Source: Thalassospira lucentensis
Lineage (GTDB): Bacteria > Pseudomonadota > Alphaproteobacteria > Rhodospirillales > Thalassospiraceae
DNA: 64,000 bases
Reading direction: 5' to 3'
Assembly (NCBI RefSeq): GCF_011806425.1
Contig: NZ_JAATOV010000001.1
Span: 248,001-312,000, forward strand
Of this stretch, positions 29,661 to 36,887 are shown in pieces (the stretch's first letter is position 1; every line of letters begins with the position of its first letter). A program made the position numbers and the translations under genes. The notes beneath the pieces were generated by a model. The model was not told the DNA's origin. It saw only the letters and a program-made list of their open reading frames with translations, and did not search any database.

Positions 29661-31199
29661 TTATTCCGGCGCATAGCCAAATGCAGCCGGCGGGTTTTCC
29701 GCCGTTTCGGTCCAGACACTTTTGGGCTGCATATATTCCATCAGCCCTTCCTTGCCGCTGGACCGGCCATAGCCACTGTGACCAAATCCGCCAAACGGCG
29801 ACATGACGTTGATCGTCTTATAGCTGTTGATCCAAAACGTTCCCGCACGCACGTTTGCCGCAACCCGGTGCGCACGATCAACGCGGTTGGTCCAAACTGC
29901 ACCAGCCAGCCCAAACTTACTGTCATTGGCGATTGCAATTGCATCGGCTTCGTCGTCGAACGGAATAACCGACACAACCGGGCCAAAGATTTCCTCGCGC
30001 GCGATGCCCATATCGTTGCGCACATTGCCAAGCACCGTCGGACGCAGGAAATAACCATCGGCACAGATGCCGCCTTCCGGGCGCGCACCGCCGGCCAAAA
30101 CCTCTGCCCCTTCTTGGCAGCCTGCTTTGATCAGGCCCTCAATTGTCTGATACTGGGCCAAGTTATTAATCGGCCCAATCTGGGTTGCGGGATCAAGCGG
30201 ATCGCCTACCGGGATCTGATTGGCCCCATCGACCAGCATATCGACAAACCGATCAAGCACGGATCGCTGGACCAACAACCGCGATCCGGCCACACAGCTT
30301 TGTCCCGCACCGCTGAAGATCGCAGCCTGTGCGCCAAGAACCGCCCGTCTCAAATCGGCATCCTCAAAAACAATATTGGCCGATTTACCGCCAAGTTCCA
30401 AAACACAGGGCACAATATTTGCCGCGGCTTGGGCCGCAATCGCCGCCCCGGTTTTGGGTGATCCGACAAACACAACCTTGCGCGTGACATCATGGGTGGT
30501 CGCGGCCACACCGGTGGTCATGCCAAGCCCGGTCAAAATCGTGATAACCCCATCAGGCAGACCGGCCTTTTTGCTGAGCCCACCAAGGGCAAGCGACGTT
30601 AACGGCGTCATTTCCGATGGTTTAAGAACCGCAGCATTGCCCGCACAAAGGGCGGGTGCCAATTGCCAACCGGCTGTAAAGATCGGTGCGTTCCACGGTG
30701 TAATCTGGGTGATCACGCCATATGGCTCTGGCCGGGTATAGTTAAGGTGACTGGTCGGAACCGGGATCACATCGCCATGCAGTTTGTCCGCCCAACCGGC
30801 GTAGTATTCAAACATTTCAGCGACTTTAAGAACCTCGACCCGGGTATCGCGGATTGGCTTTCCGGCCGAAACGGTTTCCAACACAGCCAGTTGCTCAAGA
30901 TGGTCACGCACCTGTTGACCAATGCGCCACAAGATACGTCCGCGCTCCGCCGCCGGAAGCGCCCACCAAACACGTTGACCTTTTTCTGCCGCCTGCATCG
31001 CGGCATCAACAACCTCGGCGCCTGCATCTTTAAGTTCAAGAAATGCCTTGCCGGTTGCCGGATCAATCAGATCAAACGCTTCACCACGCCCAGCCATCAT
31101 TGCCCCGTTTACCCAGCTTCCGATCTCAGCGTCGCCAAAGAAGGGCTGCATCGCCGCCTTGTAATCGCGATCCATCAGGGTTTCGTTTGCCACGGTCAT
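29661..31199 (-). CDS. NAD(P)-dependent aldehyde dehydrogenase
   Basis: Aldehyde to carboxylate oxidation by an ALDH-superfamily enzyme, 512 aa. Catalytic elements are intact: the Glu region VLELGGKSANIVFEDADL, the nucleophile Cys in FSGAGQSCVAGSRLLV, the NAD-binding VGSPKTGAAIAAQAA, and NVRAGTFWINSYKTINVMSPFGGFGHSGYGR near the end. It resembles betaine/aminoaldehyde and aromatic aldehyde dehydrogenases; the substrate cannot be set from sequence. It starts 3 bp after the stop of the upstream hydroxyacid dehydrogenase gene, so the two act together, and the pair is transcribed divergently from a LysR gene. Confidence 0.92.
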   Translation of the reverse strand: MTVANETLMDRDYKAAMQPFFGDAEIGSWVNGAMMAGRGEAFDLIDPATGKAFLELKDAGAEVVDAAMQAAEKGQRVWWALPAAERGRILWRIGQQVRDHLEQLAVLETVSAGKPIRDTRVEVLKVAEMFEYYAGWADKLHGDVIPVPTSHLNYTRPEPYGVITQITPWNAPIFTAGWQLAPALCAGNAAVLKPSEMTPLTSLALGGLSKKAGLPDGVITILTGLGMTTGVAATTHDVTRKVVFVGSPKTGAAIAAQAAANIVPCVLELGGKSANIVFEDADLRRAVLGAQAAIFSGAGQSCVAGSRLLVQRSVLDRFVDMLVDGANQIPVGDPLDPATQIGPINNLAQYQTIEGLIKAGCQEGAEVLAGGARPEGGICADGYFLRPTVLGNVRNDMGIAREEIFGPVVSVIPFDDEADAIAIANDSKFGLAGAVWTNRVDRAHRVAANVRAGTFWINSYKTINVMSPFGGFGHSGYGRSSGKEGLMEYMQPKSVWTETAENPPAAFGYAPE

Positions 31200-31201
31200 T
31201 T

Positions 31202-32158
31202 TTATTCTCCTGCCTTAAGGGGATCGGTCTTGGTTACGGTGTTTGTCGCGGACGTGTTTTTCAACTCGGTGATCCGGTTGAAATCTTCGCCATCGGCAAG
31301 GCTATCGGCACTTTGCGCCCATAACTCACCGGCCAGCTCAGAAACCGGCATCGCGATATCTTTCTGTGCTGCCAACGCCATGGCAAGGCGCACATCCTTG
31401 CGCATCAGGCCCATGGTAAATCCGCTGTCAAACGCACCGTTCATCACCCACTTGGGATAATTGACCTCGCTAATCGCGCTTCGGCCTGACCCGGCATTCA
31501 ATGCATTTATCAGGTTCTCGACCTCAACCCCGGCTGCGGTGCCAAGGCGTATTGCCTCGCTCATGGTCAACAGGTGTGTTGCCACGAGCATGTTATTTAC
31601 AATCTTCACCGCATGCCCGGCACCAACCGGCCCAACATGGGTGATCTTGCCACCCAGCGCGGTTAGAACAGGCATCGCCTTTGCAAAATCGCTTTCCGAT
31701 CCGCCAACCATCATCGTCAGTTGTCCTGAATTGGCCCCGGCAGGGCCACCGCTGACCGGCGCATCAATCAGGATATGACCAAGCCGACGCAGCGATTGGT
31801 CAAGCGCGCGGGTCACATCGGGCTCGGACGTTGTGGTGTCAATCACCAGACGCGGTCCGCAATCACAGCCCGTCAGCCCACCGTCGCCCGTCAGAACCGC
31901 CGTGACATGCGCCGCTGTTGGCAGCGACAAAATGATGGTGTCACAGGATTTAAACAGCTCCTGCTGGCTTGTGACGATGGCGGCCCCGGCCTCGGCGGTT
32001 TCGATCCGCCGGTCGTTGGAAAGGTCAAACCCAACAACGGCAAAACCTTCGCGTAACAAGGTCCGCACCATGCCAAGCCCCATATTGCCAAGGCCAATCA
32101 CGCCTATGGTACCGGTGTTACCGATGGCGCCATCTGCACCAGTATTCGAATTCGTCAC
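31202..32158 (-). CDS. NAD(P)-dependent beta-hydroxyacid dehydrogenase (3-hydroxyisobutyrate dehydrogenase family)
   Basis: Cytoplasmic oxidoreductase acting on a beta-hydroxy acid, 318 aa. Seen: Rossmann motif GVIGLGNMGLGMVRTLLREG, the substrate motif DAPVSGGPAGANSGQLTMMVGG and the catalytic Lys in GHAVKIVNNMLVATHLL. The N-terminus has about 15 extra residues (MTNSNTGADGAIGNTG). It forms a two-gene operon with the aldehyde dehydrogenase (hydroxyacid gene first). Which family member (3-hydroxyisobutyrate, tartronate semialdehyde or threonate type) is not resolved. Divergent from lysR, hence a probable target of that regulator. Confidence 0.88.
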   Translation of the reverse strand: MTNSNTGADGAIGNTGTIGVIGLGNMGLGMVRTLLREGFAVVGFDLSNDRRIETAEAGAAIVTSQQELFKSCDTIILSLPTAAHVTAVLTGDGGLTGCDCGPRLVIDTTTSEPDVTRALDQSLRRLGHILIDAPVSGGPAGANSGQLTMMVGGSESDFAKAMPVLTALGGKITHVGPVGAGHAVKIVNNMLVATHLLTMSEAIRLGTAAGVEVENLINALNAGSGRSAISEVNYPKWVMNGAFDSGFTMGLMRKDVRLAMALAAQKDIAMPVSELAGELWAQSADSLADGEDFNRITELKNTSATNTVTKTDPLKAGE

Positions 32159-32325
32159 GATACTTGCCTCTCTGTTCGTTCTGATATGGCTGCGGACATA
32201 CGGGTTCGTTCGGGAAAAACATACGTCTTACCCCGCGCTCAGCGCTGATCCGCACCGATACGTCCGTTCATATTTTTGAGTTACCCAGCAACTGTCCGGT
32301 GGAACTGGGCCATATTCAAGATCAA

Positions 32326-32358
32326 TTGCCGGAACATGTTGTTGCCGAAACAGCAACA
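32326..32358. promoter_or_regulatory. Putative LysR operator, copy 1 (upstream of lysR)
   Basis: TGTTGC-CGAAACA-GCAACA (32340-32358) is a 6-bp dyad containing a T-N11-A LysR box (T32343 to A32355). A further half-site TTGCCGGAAC lies 16 bp upstream (32326-32335), echoing TTGCCGAAAC at 32342. It ends 40 bp before the LysR start codon and lies in the divergent gap shared with the dehydrogenase operon. A near-identical copy occurs at 33346. Confidence 0.65.
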
Positions 32359-32398
32359 GATATGCTCTGATAAAGGCATCACCCGATAAATTGATGTT

Positions 32399-33334
32399 AT
32401 GCACATGAAAATTGACGACAAACCGCTCCGCTATTTTCTGGCCGTGTTCGAAGCAGGCTCTATCCGCACCGCCGCAGACACCTTGCGGATCGCACCATCG
32501 GCCATCAGTCGTCAGATTTCTGCACTAGAAGCCCGTCTTGATACGCTGTTGATGGAACGCACCAAACGCGGGATTATTTTCACCGAATCTGGTCATATGG
32601 TCGCGGCCCATGCCCGTCGGCGCATCGAACTTGATGAAAGTTTTGCGGTTGATTTGGCCGCGGCGCGCGGGGCGATTGCAGGTACGGTCCGCATCGCTAC
32701 GGGCGAGGGTTTCGTTGTGGATTTGGTCAATCATGTGGTGCGGCCGTTGCGTGATGGATTTCCCGACATCCGGCTTGAAATTGATGTTGCCGGCACGGAA
32801 AAAATCACACACGGCATCTTGCGTGATGACTATGATATGGGGCTTGTTTTCAATCCCCCGCGCACCGCAGACCTTGAGTTACTGGCCGAGGATCACGCAC
32901 CGCTTTGCGCGCTTGTCCCGCCACAGTTTCCCTTAGCAAAAAAGAAAACCTGCAGCTTTTCCGAAACGCTTGGCTATCCGCTTGCACTGTTAAACCCGCA
33001 TTTTGGCGTTGCCAAACTTTTGGCCAACACAGATCAGGGCGACCGGGCGGCAAAGGATGCCTTTTTGACAGCCGATTCGATCAATGTCGCCATTCACTTT
33101 GTTCTGTCGGGGGGCGGGATTACCTATCTTCCGGCCTTTGCCGTATCCCGACAATTACGCAGGGGCGAGATCGTTGCCATCCCAATGACAGACGATTTTC
33201 TATCCCGCGTCCCATCCCATCTGTTGGTGCGCAAAGGTCGACCAAAAACCGCCGCAGTTCGGGCAGTTACCGGCGTCATCCGCGATCGGATGGAGGCATT
33301 TGGCGCGGCTTGGTATCCCGACGAACATCGGTAA
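32399..33334 (+). CDS. LysR family transcriptional regulator
   Basis: DNA-binding regulator, 311 aa (309 if the ATG at 32405 is used). The N-terminal winged helix-turn-helix reads YFLAVFEAGSIRTAADTLRIAPSAISRQISALEARL; the remainder is the two-lobed effector domain (residues about 95-300). It lies between two operons, a divergent one for ALDH plus hydroxyacid dehydrogenase and a co-directional one for DUF3100-like membrane protein, small membrane protein and M20 hydrolase. Dyads of almost identical sequence precede lysR and the DUF3100 gene. Likely local, self-regulating activator; the inducer is unknown. Confidence 0.93.
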   Translation: MHMKIDDKPLRYFLAVFEAGSIRTAADTLRIAPSAISRQISALEARLDTLLMERTKRGIIFTESGHMVAAHARRRIELDESFAVDLAAARGAIAGTVRIATGEGFVVDLVNHVVRPLRDGFPDIRLEIDVAGTEKITHGILRDDYDMGLVFNPPRTADLELLAEDHAPLCALVPPQFPLAKKKTCSFSETLGYPLALLNPHFGVAKLLANTDQGDRAAKDAFLTADSINVAIHFVLSGGGITYLPAFAVSRQLRRGEIVAIPMTDDFLSRVPSHLLVRKGRPKTAAVRAVTGVIRDRMEAFGAAWYPDEHR

Positions 33335-33345
33335 GCCCGAACACC

Positions 33346-33366
33346 CTGTTGCCGAAACGGCAACAG
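33346..33366. promoter_or_regulatory. Putative LysR operator, copy 2 (upstream of the DUF3100 operon)
   Basis: CTGTTGCCG-AAA-CGGCAACAG is a perfect 9-bp inverted repeat with a T-N11-A core. It shares 18 of 19 bases with the dyad ahead of lysR. It lies 12 bp after the lysR stop codon and about 200 bp before the DUF3100 start. Confidence 0.65.
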
Positions 33367-33563
33367 CAAGCTCCCAAAATGGCACTTGCCCCTTTTTCAC
33401 CAACTTTTCATTGTCACACAAAATTCCGGCCCTCAAATACGGCAGGATTATGAAACTTGCCAATGCTGGAAATTACAGGGATGGCACGGTCCGTTTTGCC
33501 AAAATCGTCGGCGAAATGCGCCCATCATCGTCAATGACACTGTTTATCAAGGAGACAGGGATA

Positions 33564-34394
33564 ATGAATGCGCTTCGGGGGCAAATGGGGCTATGGAAGC
33601 TTCATCTGGCCGTTATTGTGATCGGCGTCGTTGCCGAACTTATTGGTATTCGTAAAATTCCATTTGGAATTGGCGCGATCCTTCTTCTTCCGCTGCTTTA
33701 TGCCTTTGTCATGGCCGCACTGATGAACCCAAATGTGATGCCTAAATTTGGCAAATTCATTGGGGAAAAAGAAGTCAAAGCCGCTTCTCCGCTGATCGTC
33801 GTTGCGATCATGCCCTTCATCGCAAAATTTGGCACCACCATCGGGCCATCAATTCAAACCATCATCGAAGCAGGTCCTGCATTGTTGCTGCAGGAACTTG
33901 GCAATCTGGGGACCATTGTTCTGGCCTTCCCGCTTGCAGTTTGGGGCCTGAAAATGGGTCGCGAAGCCATTGGCGCGACCTTCTCCATCGCACGCGAACC
34001 AAACCTTGCCATCATCGCGGACCGTTATACCCTTAAAAGCCCAGAAGGCACGGGCGTTATGGGCGTGTATGTGATTGGCACCCTGTTTGGCACATTCATC
34101 TTCGCCATTTTGGCGTCTTTGTTTGCCAGCGTCGAATGGTTCGACCCGCGCGCATTGGCCATGGCATGTGGTATCGGCAGTGGCTCCATGATGGCGGCCT
34201 GCACTGGTGCCTTGACCGAAGCCATCCCTGCCATGAAGGACGAAATCCTTGCCCTTGCTGGTGCAAGTAACCTTCTGACATATGCAACGGGTCTTTATGC
34301 CGGGCTGTTCATTGCCCTGCCCGTTGTTGAAAAACTCTATAACGCAACCGCAGGCAAACGTGATCTTGCCGCCACCAAAAATAAGGAGGCTTGA
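33564..34394 (+). CDS. Multi-pass membrane protein, DUF3100-like
   Basis: 276-aa inner-membrane protein with about eight to nine hydrophobic segments; from memory it resembles the uncharacterised DUF3100 family (confidence moderate). Features: helix WKLHLAVIVIGVVAELIGI, Pro-rich IPFGIGAILLLPLLYAFVM, and a Gly/Ser-rich helix MACGIGSGSMMAACTGAL that could line a pathway. The ATG at 33564 has AAGGAG 10-14 bases upstream; an open frame continues back to 33300 inside lysR but has no start signal. It is followed at once by a second membrane protein and then an M20 hydrolase, which suggests a transporter for the hydrolase substrate. Transport is inference. Confidence 0.8.
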   Translation: MNALRGQMGLWKLHLAVIVIGVVAELIGIRKIPFGIGAILLLPLLYAFVMAALMNPNVMPKFGKFIGEKEVKAASPLIVVAIMPFIAKFGTTIGPSIQTIIEAGPALLLQELGNLGTIVLAFPLAVWGLKMGREAIGATFSIAREPNLAIIADRYTLKSPEGTGVMGVYVIGTLFGTFIFAILASLFASVEWFDPRALAMACGIGSGSMMAACTGALTEAIPAMKDEILALAGASNLLTYATGLYAGLFIALPVVEKLYNATAGKRDLAATKNKEA

Positions 34395-34994: not shown

Positions 34995-36185
34995 ATGCAG
35001 ATGACTGTTAACGCGCCTGCCCTTCATCCTCGTGCCACCGAACTTGTTGATGAGTTTACTGCGTGGCGACATCATCTGCATGCTCATCCTGAAACGGCAT
35101 TCGAAGAAAATCTGACCAGCGCCTTTGTCGCTGAAAAACTGAAATCCTTTGGTCTTGAAGTCGCAACCGGTATGGCCAAAACTGGTGTGATCGCCACCCT
35201 TAAGGGCAACAAAGGCGATGGCAAACGGATTGGCCTGCGTGCTGACATGGATGCGCTTGACATCCACGAAACCACCAACCTGCCCTATGCCTCGAAATAT
35301 CCCGGCAAAATGCATGCGTGCGGCCATGATGGTCACATGACCATGTTGTTAGGCGCGGCAAAAATTCTGGCCGAAAATCCCGATTTTGCCGGTACGGTTG
35401 ATTTCATCTTCCAGCCCGCCGAAGAAAACGAAGGCGGCGGCCGCGAAATGGTCAATGAAGGCCTGTTTGATCAATATCCGTGTGATGCGGTCTATGGCAT
35501 GCATAACTGGCCGGGACGCGATGTCGGCACCATGGCGATGAAGCCGGGTCCGATGATGGCAAGCTACGATGTGATTGAAATCGTCGTCGAAGGCAAGGGC
35601 AGCCACGCCGCTATGCCGCATTTGGGACGCGACCCGATCACCACCGCAGGTCAGGTTTTGCTGGCCCTGCAGGCCATCGTGTCACGCAACGTCAATCCGC
35701 AACAAAGTGCGGTTATCTCCCCGACACAGATTTTTGGCGGCGACACCTGGAATGTGATCCCCGATACCGCAACCATTCGTGGCACCGTGCGCACATTCGA
35801 TCCCGCCATTCAGGACATGATCGAAGAACGCCTTAAAACAGTGGTTCATTCAACCGCTGCCGCATTTGATTGCCAGGCAAAGGTATCCTATCAGCGGCGC
35901 TATCCCGCCACGATCAACACAGAAGCCGAAACTGGTATCGCACAGGCCGCCGCAGCCAAGGTGGTTGGCGCACAAAACATCGACACCGACCCAGAATCCT
36001 CGATGGCCAGCGAAGATTTCGCCTTTATGCTCAATGAAAAACCGGGCAGCTATGTCTGGCTTGGCAATGGCCCGACCGATGGCAACTGCATGCTTCATAA
36101 CGCGGCTTACAACTTCAATGATGATGCCATTGCATATGGCGTCACCTATTGGGTCGCACTGGTGCACGAACATCTGTCGGCCTAA
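34995..36185 (+). CDS. M20 family amidohydrolase (hippurate hydrolase/N-acyl amino acid hydrolase-like)
   Basis: Cytoplasmic di-metal amidohydrolase, 396 aa, which hydrolyses an N-acyl or amide bond of a carboxylate substrate. Metal ligands are seen in KMHACGHDGHMTMLLGAA and FIFQPAEENEGGGREM, and near the C-terminus in SMASEDFAFMLNEKPGSY; the dimerisation/lid domain lies between. It starts MQMTVNAPALHPRATELVDEF; an ATG six bases later is an alternative. It lies downstream of the DUF3100-like and small membrane genes on the same strand, 109 bp away, after a strong hairpin. The exact substrate is unknown. Confidence 0.92.
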   Translation: MQMTVNAPALHPRATELVDEFTAWRHHLHAHPETAFEENLTSAFVAEKLKSFGLEVATGMAKTGVIATLKGNKGDGKRIGLRADMDALDIHETTNLPYASKYPGKMHACGHDGHMTMLLGAAKILAENPDFAGTVDFIFQPAEENEGGGREMVNEGLFDQYPCDAVYGMHNWPGRDVGTMAMKPGPMMASYDVIEIVVEGKGSHAAMPHLGRDPITTAGQVLLALQAIVSRNVNPQQSAVISPTQIFGGDTWNVIPDTATIRGTVRTFDPAIQDMIEERLKTVVHSTAAAFDCQAKVSYQRRYPATINTEAETGIAQAAAAKVVGAQNIDTDPESSMASEDFAFMLNEKPGSYVWLGNGPTDGNCMLHNAAYNFNDDAIAYGVTYWVALVHEHLSA

Positions 36186-36263: not shown

Positions 36264-36887
36264 ATGAAGATTGCAATCGTTACACTTGATGGCTTTAACG
36301 AGATTGACAGCTTTGTCGCGCTTTCGATTCTAAACCGCGCCAAGTCAGATGGGGTTTGCGCCGAAATTACCGGCATGGGTGACACGGTGACATCCCTGAA
36401 TGGTGTGACCGTTTCGGTGCAAAAACCGCTTTCATTTGCCGCACAGGCCGATGCCGTCATATTTGGCAGCGGCATTCATACCCGCGACCATATCAACACG
36501 CCCGACCTGATGGCCGAACTTTCGCTTGATCCGTCCCGGCAATGGATCGGGGCGCAAGGTTCGGGGGCGTTGTTCTTGCATCGTCTTGGCTTGTTACCGG
36601 CCACCATCACAACAGATGCACAAACCCGTTCCGTCTTGGGCCGGGCCGACACCATTGTCGAAGATCGCCCGCTTGTCGCACAGGGCAACATCGTCACCGC
36701 GGGCGGCTGTTTATCATCGGGTTATCTGGCGGGCTGGATGTTGGCCAAGCATCTTGGAATGGATAAGGCGCTTTCGATTTTGGAATTTGTCGCCCCGATT
36801 GGTCAAAAATCACAATTTTCCAAACAGGCCCGCGACATCATTAGCAAACAGTTAGATGTCCCGGCAAAGCGCCCGCTTTACTGCTAG
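36264..36887 (+). CDS. DJ-1/PfpI-fold protein without the usual nucleophile
   Basis: 207-aa protein of the class I glutamine amidotransferase-like DJ-1/PfpI fold, starting MKIAIVTLDGFNEIDSFVAL after AGGAG. The nucleophile elbow normally reads V-C-T-G-A-L; here it is AQGSGALFLHRLGLL, with Gly in place of Cys. The acidic residue normally in the first helix (P-Y-E-V) also appears lost (FVALSIL). The protein is therefore probably not an isonitrile-hydratase-like enzyme by the normal mechanism, and may bind a ligand. It follows the M20 gene by 78 bp and could be part of the same transcript. Confidence 0.75.
   Translation: MKIAIVTLDGFNEIDSFVALSILNRAKSDGVCAEITGMGDTVTSLNGVTVSVQKPLSFAAQADAVIFGSGIHTRDHINTPDLMAELSLDPSRQWIGAQGSGALFLHRLGLLPATITTDAQTRSVLGRADTIVEDRPLVAQGNIVTAGGCLSSGYLAGWMLAKHLGMDKALSILEFVAPIGQKSQFSKQARDIISKQLDVPAKRPLYC

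Follow-up and report, generated by a model that had tools for sequence, protein, structure and literature searches.

Two near-identical dyads beside a lysR gene and the putative regulon of a DUF3100-containing module in Thalassospira

The Escherichia coli AbgR-AbgABT system, which serves p-aminobenzoyl-glutamate utilisation, combines M20 hydrolases and an amide-specific membrane transporter with a neighbouring LysR regulator; AbgT is not a DUF3100 protein, and the system is not known to involve a HIBADH-ALDH pair. The closest described circuit that we found is that of the 3-hydroxypropionate-inducible LysR systems of Pseudomonas denitrificans, which govern the C3 and C4 operons. According to passages of that report, a LysR gene is oriented there against an operon that encodes an aldehyde dehydrogenase together with a 3-hydroxyisobutyrate-type dehydrogenase, a T-N11-A regulatory site is combined with an activation site near -35, and negative self-regulation of the LysR protein is suggested (PMC4617489). 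The arrangement of a LysR gene opposite HIBADH-type and aldehyde dehydrogenase genes is common to P. denitrificans and to the Thalassospira locus described here. However, these passages pair hbdH-4 with MmsA, whereas the best model for the Thalassospira aldehyde dehydrogenase (ALDH) is a betaine-aldehyde dehydrogenase, scoring below its cut-off; they also name no transporter or amidohydrolase (PMC4617489), whereas the Thalassospira locus has an M20 amidohydrolase and a proposed transporter. The likeness is one of arrangement, and in Thalassospira, unlike P. denitrificans, a single LysR appears to serve two operons, one to either side of it.

A second point of comparison is the lys box of PltR in Pseudomonas aeruginosa M18, an interrupted T-N11-A palindrome that spans -74 to -53 in its target promoter and is described as needed for binding and activation (PMC3382589). 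The PltR box measures 22 bp, with 9-bp repeats and a 4-bp interruption, whereas the Thalassospira dyad has 19 bp; the passages on PltR concern one target promoter, that of a biosynthetic operon, whereas the Thalassospira module would be catabolic (PMC3382589). In open-access full texts we found no paper containing the word DUF3100, and none that joins aminoacylase, LysR, 3-hydroxyisobutyrate dehydrogenase, aldehyde dehydrogenase and operon. The strings TTGC-N7-GCAA and GTTGC-N7-GCAAC together with LysR were likewise absent among the matches listed. The switch itself is of the textbook LysR type, a reading that is well supported; the pathway that it would serve is uncharacterised and recurs in many bacteria.

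The two dyads and the genes they face

The window, that is, the whole stretch of 64,000 nucleotides from Thalassospira lucentensis that was analysed, contains the following features.

29661..31199, minus strand: aldehyde dehydrogenase (ALDH), downstream of HIBADH; Pfam Aldedh
31202..32158, minus strand: 3-hydroxyisobutyrate-dehydrogenase-like (HIBADH-type) NAD(P)-dependent hydroxyacid dehydrogenase; Pfam NAD_binding_2 and NAD_binding_11
32317..32337, minus strand: proposed activation site ATGTTCCGGCAATTGAT with CTTG as -35-like element, HIBADH-ALDH promoter; includes the half-site 32326-32335
32340..32358, minus strand: site 1, dyad TGTTGCTGTTTCGGCAACA in the direction of HIBADH-ALDH; proposed main site of regulatory LysR binding, which also precedes lysR
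32399..33334, plus strand: LysR-type regulator; Pfam HTH_1 and LysR_substrate
33347..33365, plus strand: site 2, dyad TGTTGCCG-AAA-CGGCAACA towards DUF3100; proposed regulatory binding site
33366..33388, plus strand: proposed activation site TCCCAAAATGGCA with CTTG as -35-like element, DUF3100 promoter; conserved spacing
33564..34394, plus strand: DUF3100 membrane protein, proposed first half of a transporter; Pfam PF11299
34391..34885, plus strand: 164-aa membrane protein, proposed second half of the transporter; fused to DUF3100 in some relatives
34995..36185, plus strand: M20-family amidohydrolase/aminoacylase; Pfam Peptidase_M20 and M20_dimer, NCBIfam TIGR01891 above cut-off

Site 1 (TGTTGCCGAAACAGCAACA) and site 2 (TGTTGCCGAAACGGCAACA) agree in 18 of 19 bases and share a T-N11-A core at bases 4 and 16 of each, so that the identity and the core put forward in the original prediction are reproduced from the window sequence. 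Its coordinates were exact for site 1 and one base short at each end for site 2, given as 33348-33364. Site 2 forms a perfect palindrome, its 8-bp arms flanking three central base pairs; in site 1 one base breaks the palindrome. The extra half-site claimed upstream of site 1 is present (TTGCCGGAAC, 32326-32335), its start lying 14 bp before the dyad rather than the 16 bp first supposed, and it belongs to the divergent HIBADH promoter, as part of the proposed activation site.

The window holds only two such 19-mers. When TGTTGCCGAAACNGCAACA was searched with up to three mismatches, three matches were obtained in the window, corresponding to both sites and to site 2 on the other strand, as against a mean of 0.12 in dinucleotide shuffles, none of which reached three. 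In the 4.5 Mb genome of the same strain, a tight form of the pattern, TGTTGCYNNNNNGGCAACA, occurs at sites 1 and 2 only, and the reversed control pattern gives two matches. The 15-base core TTGCCGAAACNGCAA has two more exact copies in this genome, one inside a 295-codon open frame (L004) and one in the gap towards which two longer frames converge (L003); both lack the outer dyad bases, and we took them as chance occurrences.

A looser dyad, YGTTGC-N7-GCAACR, is found in seven places in the same genome, the two sites described here and five others, and its reversed control in three. All five other copies lie inside stop-to-stop open frames, three of them within about 150 bases of the frame's 5' end (C5:929379, C8:105662 and C9:105809; L166, L167 and L168, respectively). 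These three might be further sites, though the control leads us to expect about three copies by itself; we claim no further target in this genome.

The LysR protein has the expected N-terminal HTH (PF00126, 6e-18) and C-terminal substrate domain (PF03466, 2.5e-36), and its start is probably the ATG at 32405 (MKIDDKP); in 17 of 19 Thalassospira genomes the match to it starts at residue 3 of the listed frame. HIBADH is listed from a GTG, and its true start may lie further in. DUF3100 probably starts at the ATG at 33564, after an AAGGAGA-type leader, and M20, separated from the preceding gene by a 109-bp gap, is probably the last gene of this operon. A Pfam search found no family for the 164-aa membrane protein. 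For ALDH, the best NCBIfam model, betaine-aldehyde dehydrogenase, scores 495 bits against a cut-off of 668.6; of the 39 matches, the best 25 include none to a methylmalonate-semialdehyde model. Sequence searches of solved structures returned a distant relative of M20, an aminobenzoyl-glutamate utilisation protein; they gave no match to LysR at E 1e-20 and no credible relative of DUF3100, for which the three matches had E values of 0.06 or worse. An AlphaFold model of DUF3100, built from a 3-row alignment, reached a mean pLDDT of 40.7 and was too poor for a fold search.

Close behind M20 lies a DJ-1/PfpI family gene (36264-36887). It has no match in the relatives scanned, including two from Thalassospira whose scanned sequence extends beyond M20 (L085, L086), and we left it out of the module.

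Conservation of the dyads and promoter geometry

Among 29 Thalassospira genomes, lysR is present in 19 and DUF3100 in the same 19, and both dyads are found at the locus in all of these. Named records with a LysR 81-96% identical to this one all belong to Thalassospira, and a search of 317 genomes of the order at E 1e-50, with at most seven candidates scored per genome, matched 19 genomes, none of them outside the genus. Site 1 is unchanged in the 19 genomes. In site 2 the arms TGTTGCC and GGCAACA are invariant and the five central bases vary, which is the behaviour to be expected if a protein binds the dyad. The tight pattern occurs at both sites in every lysR-bearing genome, with extra single strays in four (G012, G023, G026, G028); eight of the 10 genomes without lysR contain no copy, and the other two contain one stray each (G003, G010). 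One genome carries a broken lysR, with an internal stop and a match in two pieces (G009:C1:3597272-3598194; L049, L050), and has retained both dyads and DUF3100.

Outside the order, three genomes of one genus have a LysR 62% identical to that of Thalassospira; we call them Tistrella-type, since the coordinates of one agree with plasmid pTM3 of Tistrella mobilis. On plasmid pTM3 of Tistrella mobilis (Geminicoccales), the HIBADH-ALDH-LysR group lies about 6 kb from the DUF3100 group, and each has its own dyad: CGTTGCCATAACGGCAACG faces HIBADH and TGTTGCCGTCCCGGCAACG faces DUF3100. A second, distant LysR (26% identical) precedes DUF3100 on pTM3 and is thus a possible binder of the DUF3100-facing dyad in Tistrella. 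The prediction that the dyads are conserved beside orthologues therefore holds for both target operons in 19 of 19 Thalassospira and three of three Tistrella-type genomes. The wider proposal, that LysR controls HIBADH-ALDH and the operon of DUF3100, membrane protein and M20, gains support, since the dyads track lysR across the 29 genomes and stay with the operons where these are separated. In two of the three Tistrella-type genomes, a partial second copy of the dyad is seen 26 bp upstream of the DUF3100-facing dyad (L070:1295-1339 and L072:2470-2514).

Both promoter classes have one layout, a dyad followed after exactly 19 nt by CTTG, in 44 of 44 Thalassospira and Tistrella promoters. The two classes, each with 19 Thalassospira and three Tistrella-type members, contribute 22 of 22 HIBADH-facing and 22 of 22 DUF3100-facing promoters; many of these genomes are close relatives, so the 44 promoters do not represent 44 independent events. 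The Thalassospira DUF3100 promoters were gathered with a string in which CTTG could stand at any distance, a condition that cost no locus. When the two classes are aligned in register, seven positions downstream of the dyad carry one and the same base throughout, versus 0-3 at 24 other offsets.

Read in this way, site 1 on the minus strand faces HIBADH-ALDH and site 2 the operon of DUF3100, membrane protein and M20, each dyad pointing away from lysR and towards a structural operon. We propose that CTTG is the -35-like element of both promoters. Since a generic sigma-70 scan detected no promoter here, the -35 and -10 elements are assigned by conservation alone. If CTTG is the -35 region, the centre of the dyad falls near -65, the usual place of a LysR-type regulatory site, and the block between dyad and CTTG may be the activation site. 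A T-N11-A interrupted palindrome stands upstream of the target operons at both sites, as is typical of LysR-type control, in which a divergent regulator gene often shares this element. A conserved block at a fixed 19-nt spacing lies where an activation site would be expected in all 44 promoters, with no consensus promoter in the sigma-70 scan.

We infer the following circuit. LysR would bind both dyads: the HIBADH-ALDH promoter on the minus strand would have its upstream regulatory site in site 1, and the plus-strand promoter of DUF3100, membrane protein and M20 would have it in site 2. A weaker second site beside each -35 element would make up the classical LysR-type layout. LysR would activate both operons in response to an inducer, which is probably the compound taken up or an intermediate of its breakdown; since site 1 also lies upstream of lysR, the protein probably limits its own expression there, a self-control that its position makes plausible. 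DUF3100 and its partner would import an amide-type compound, M20 would hydrolyse the imported amide, and HIBADH and ALDH would oxidise an alcohol of a product via an aldehyde to an acid. We put the probability that an ordinary LysR-type activator binds both dyads and activates both flanking operons of an amide-catabolic module at about 85%. The operator would thereby tie DUF3100 and its partner, the M20 hydrolase and the two dehydrogenases into one probable regulon.

The same geometry bears on an unlikely variant, in which LysR binds both sites mainly as a repressor released by the inducer. Orientation and spacing by themselves are compatible with activation and repression alike. However, repressor sites more usually overlap the promoter, whereas here about 29 nt, including a conserved block, separate the centre of the dyad from the -35-like element downstream, which is the layout of an activator.

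Recurrence of the module and its dyad in other bacteria

DUF3100, its partner, M20, LysR (mostly 30-40% identical), HIBADH and ALDH recur together on plasmids and chromosomes, in shuffled order and varying completeness, and named records that combine LysR, HIBADH and DUF3100 come from Alpha-, Beta- and Gammaproteobacteria. Plasmid records comprised 70 with DUF3100 (60 listed) and 32 with HIBADH, from which 27 regions were taken; two Burkholderia records and most duplicates were left out. In 34 module loci, many of them close relatives, we searched for exact matches to the looser dyad, hereafter the strict dyad. It occurs 25 times in 18,684 bp of promoter windows versus three times in 541,693 other bp, and 0.01 times on average in shuffled promoter windows. 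At least one promoter-window dyad is found in 16 of the 34 loci; all 16 are among the 28 that match this LysR, and the six that do not match it (L116, L119, L120, L137, L143, L159) have none. Since five of the 16 are related Ensifer/Sinorhizobium loci and two are Paracoccus, the independent dyad loci, counting Tistrella, number about eleven.

Every named record that has a strict dyad belongs to the Alphaproteobacteria; the dyad is also found in four loci from elsewhere in the phylum (L142, L144, L147, L149) and in one further alphaproteobacterial locus (L148). Records of Ensifer/Sinorhizobium, Agrobacterium tumefaciens and Paracoccus have their own dyad at both the DUF3100 and the HIBADH promoters. 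Twelve of the 28 LysR-bearing loci lack the strict dyad, and five of these (L115, L161, L145, L154, L156) have a one-mismatch dyad in place; Psychrobacter and Paraburkholderia caribensis yielded none. The strict dyad is found in none of four Burkholderiaceae loci (L157, L170, L171, L174). Family f229 (six loci, four with LysR) has the dyad in none and, in the five loci L137-L141, no different dyad common to all five; its module may be regulated differently. The string GAACACC is common to three of the five f229 DUF3100 leaders looked at (L139, L140, L141).

Six further loci were hand-chosen later, with the pattern fixed beforehand. Two of the five with LysR and HIBADH matches have a strict dyad, in both cases between LysR and the HIBADH-ALDH operon, and no strict dyad occurs elsewhere in the six. 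In Pseudoroseomonas it stands shortly before the HIBADH match and overlaps the annotated start of that gene. In Rhodobacteraceae M382 it lies just behind lysR, before a run of ABC transporter, HIBADH and ALDH genes and about 5.3 kb from HIBADH; an ABC transporter occupies the place expected for DUF3100. The other three of the five, the Burkholderiaceae loci L170, L171 and L174 listed above, have no strict dyad, nor does the sixth, an Arthrobacter locus without a LysR match.

Three actinobacterial relatives of LysR (30-34% identical) have a dyad immediately in front of the lysR gene itself; it is strict in L089 and differs by one mismatch in L087 and L088. These loci adjoin an M20 hydrolase gene (by Pfam in L087 and L089), and L087 also has an MFS transporter. 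On a tree of the LysR proteins the dyad is clustered but not confined to one clade, with six changes versus 10.2 in shuffles; a protein was labelled as dyad-bearing if its locus has any strict dyad, so that the second Tistrella LysR counts as such, and L087 and L088 were labelled by hand.

This distribution bears on whether LysR is the protein that binds. Another regulator of the cell, such as a dimeric repressor encoded elsewhere, could recognise the dyads, with LysR between them by chance: the dyads are near-perfect palindromes of a kind that many repressors also bind, and the 12 LysR-bearing relatives without a strict dyad would fit. We nevertheless consider this quite improbable, because the dyad tracks the presence of lysR, the looser form being missing in all six module loci without a LysR match and the tight form, single strays apart, in Thalassospira genomes that lack the gene. 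Furthermore, the actinobacterial relatives have the dyad or a close form before lysR, beside different genes, and the 19-nt spacing to the -35-like element fits LysR-type activation. Least probable, and rejected, is that site 2 is a transcription terminator of lysR (an RNA hairpin) and site 1 an unrelated or duplicated copy. Only 13 bases do separate site 2 from the stop codon of lysR, and its predicted folding energy is -15.3 kcal/mol (z -3.3). However, no T-run follows it, and a search for terminator-like sites picked up neither of the dyads. The pair that would close the loop is not conserved either, since in seven of 19 genomes the loop is flanked by A and C, which cannot pair. Moreover, site 1 does not lie behind the end of a gene, and the DUF3100-facing dyad of Agrobacterium and Ensifer does not lie behind lysR.

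The proposed transporter and its possible substrate

In some relatives, DUF3100 and the 164-aa protein form a single reading frame: a 534-aa frame in L073 (G517) and coding sequences of 427 aa in L118 and 449 aa in L158. This suggests that the two proteins work as one transporter. Judged by the length of the coding sequence, L156 and L173 perhaps also contain the fusion.

A broader hypothesis, which we hold tentatively and at somewhat less than even odds, is that one LysR clade acting on GTTGC-N7-GCAAC in Proteobacteria and Actinobacteria runs a widespread, undescribed pathway, with DUF3100 and its partner as a new transporter family that imports an amide-linked compound, perhaps N-acyl or pantothenate-like, for M20, HIBADH and ALDH. 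If so, the operator would allow regulator, DUF3100 transporter and substrate to be assigned together. The operator is also ready for use in a reporter to screen inducers, and hence the substrate of DUF3100.

Pantothenate was considered as a candidate substrate; its breakdown proceeds by hydrolysis of the amide, after which the primary alcohol is oxidised twice. No genes for its later steps were noticed in the annotated neighbour lists, which were scanned without an aimed search, and literature on pantothenate-breakdown genes of this kind was absent among the matches listed. Serine/threonine breakdown genes lie near DUF3100 in three genera (L116, L118, L158): a threonine/serine dehydratase with a Rid protein, threonine dehydrogenase with glycine C-acetyltransferase, and L-serine ammonia-lyase. 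As a possible clue, these neighbours point to amides of hydroxy-amino acids rather than to pantothenate.
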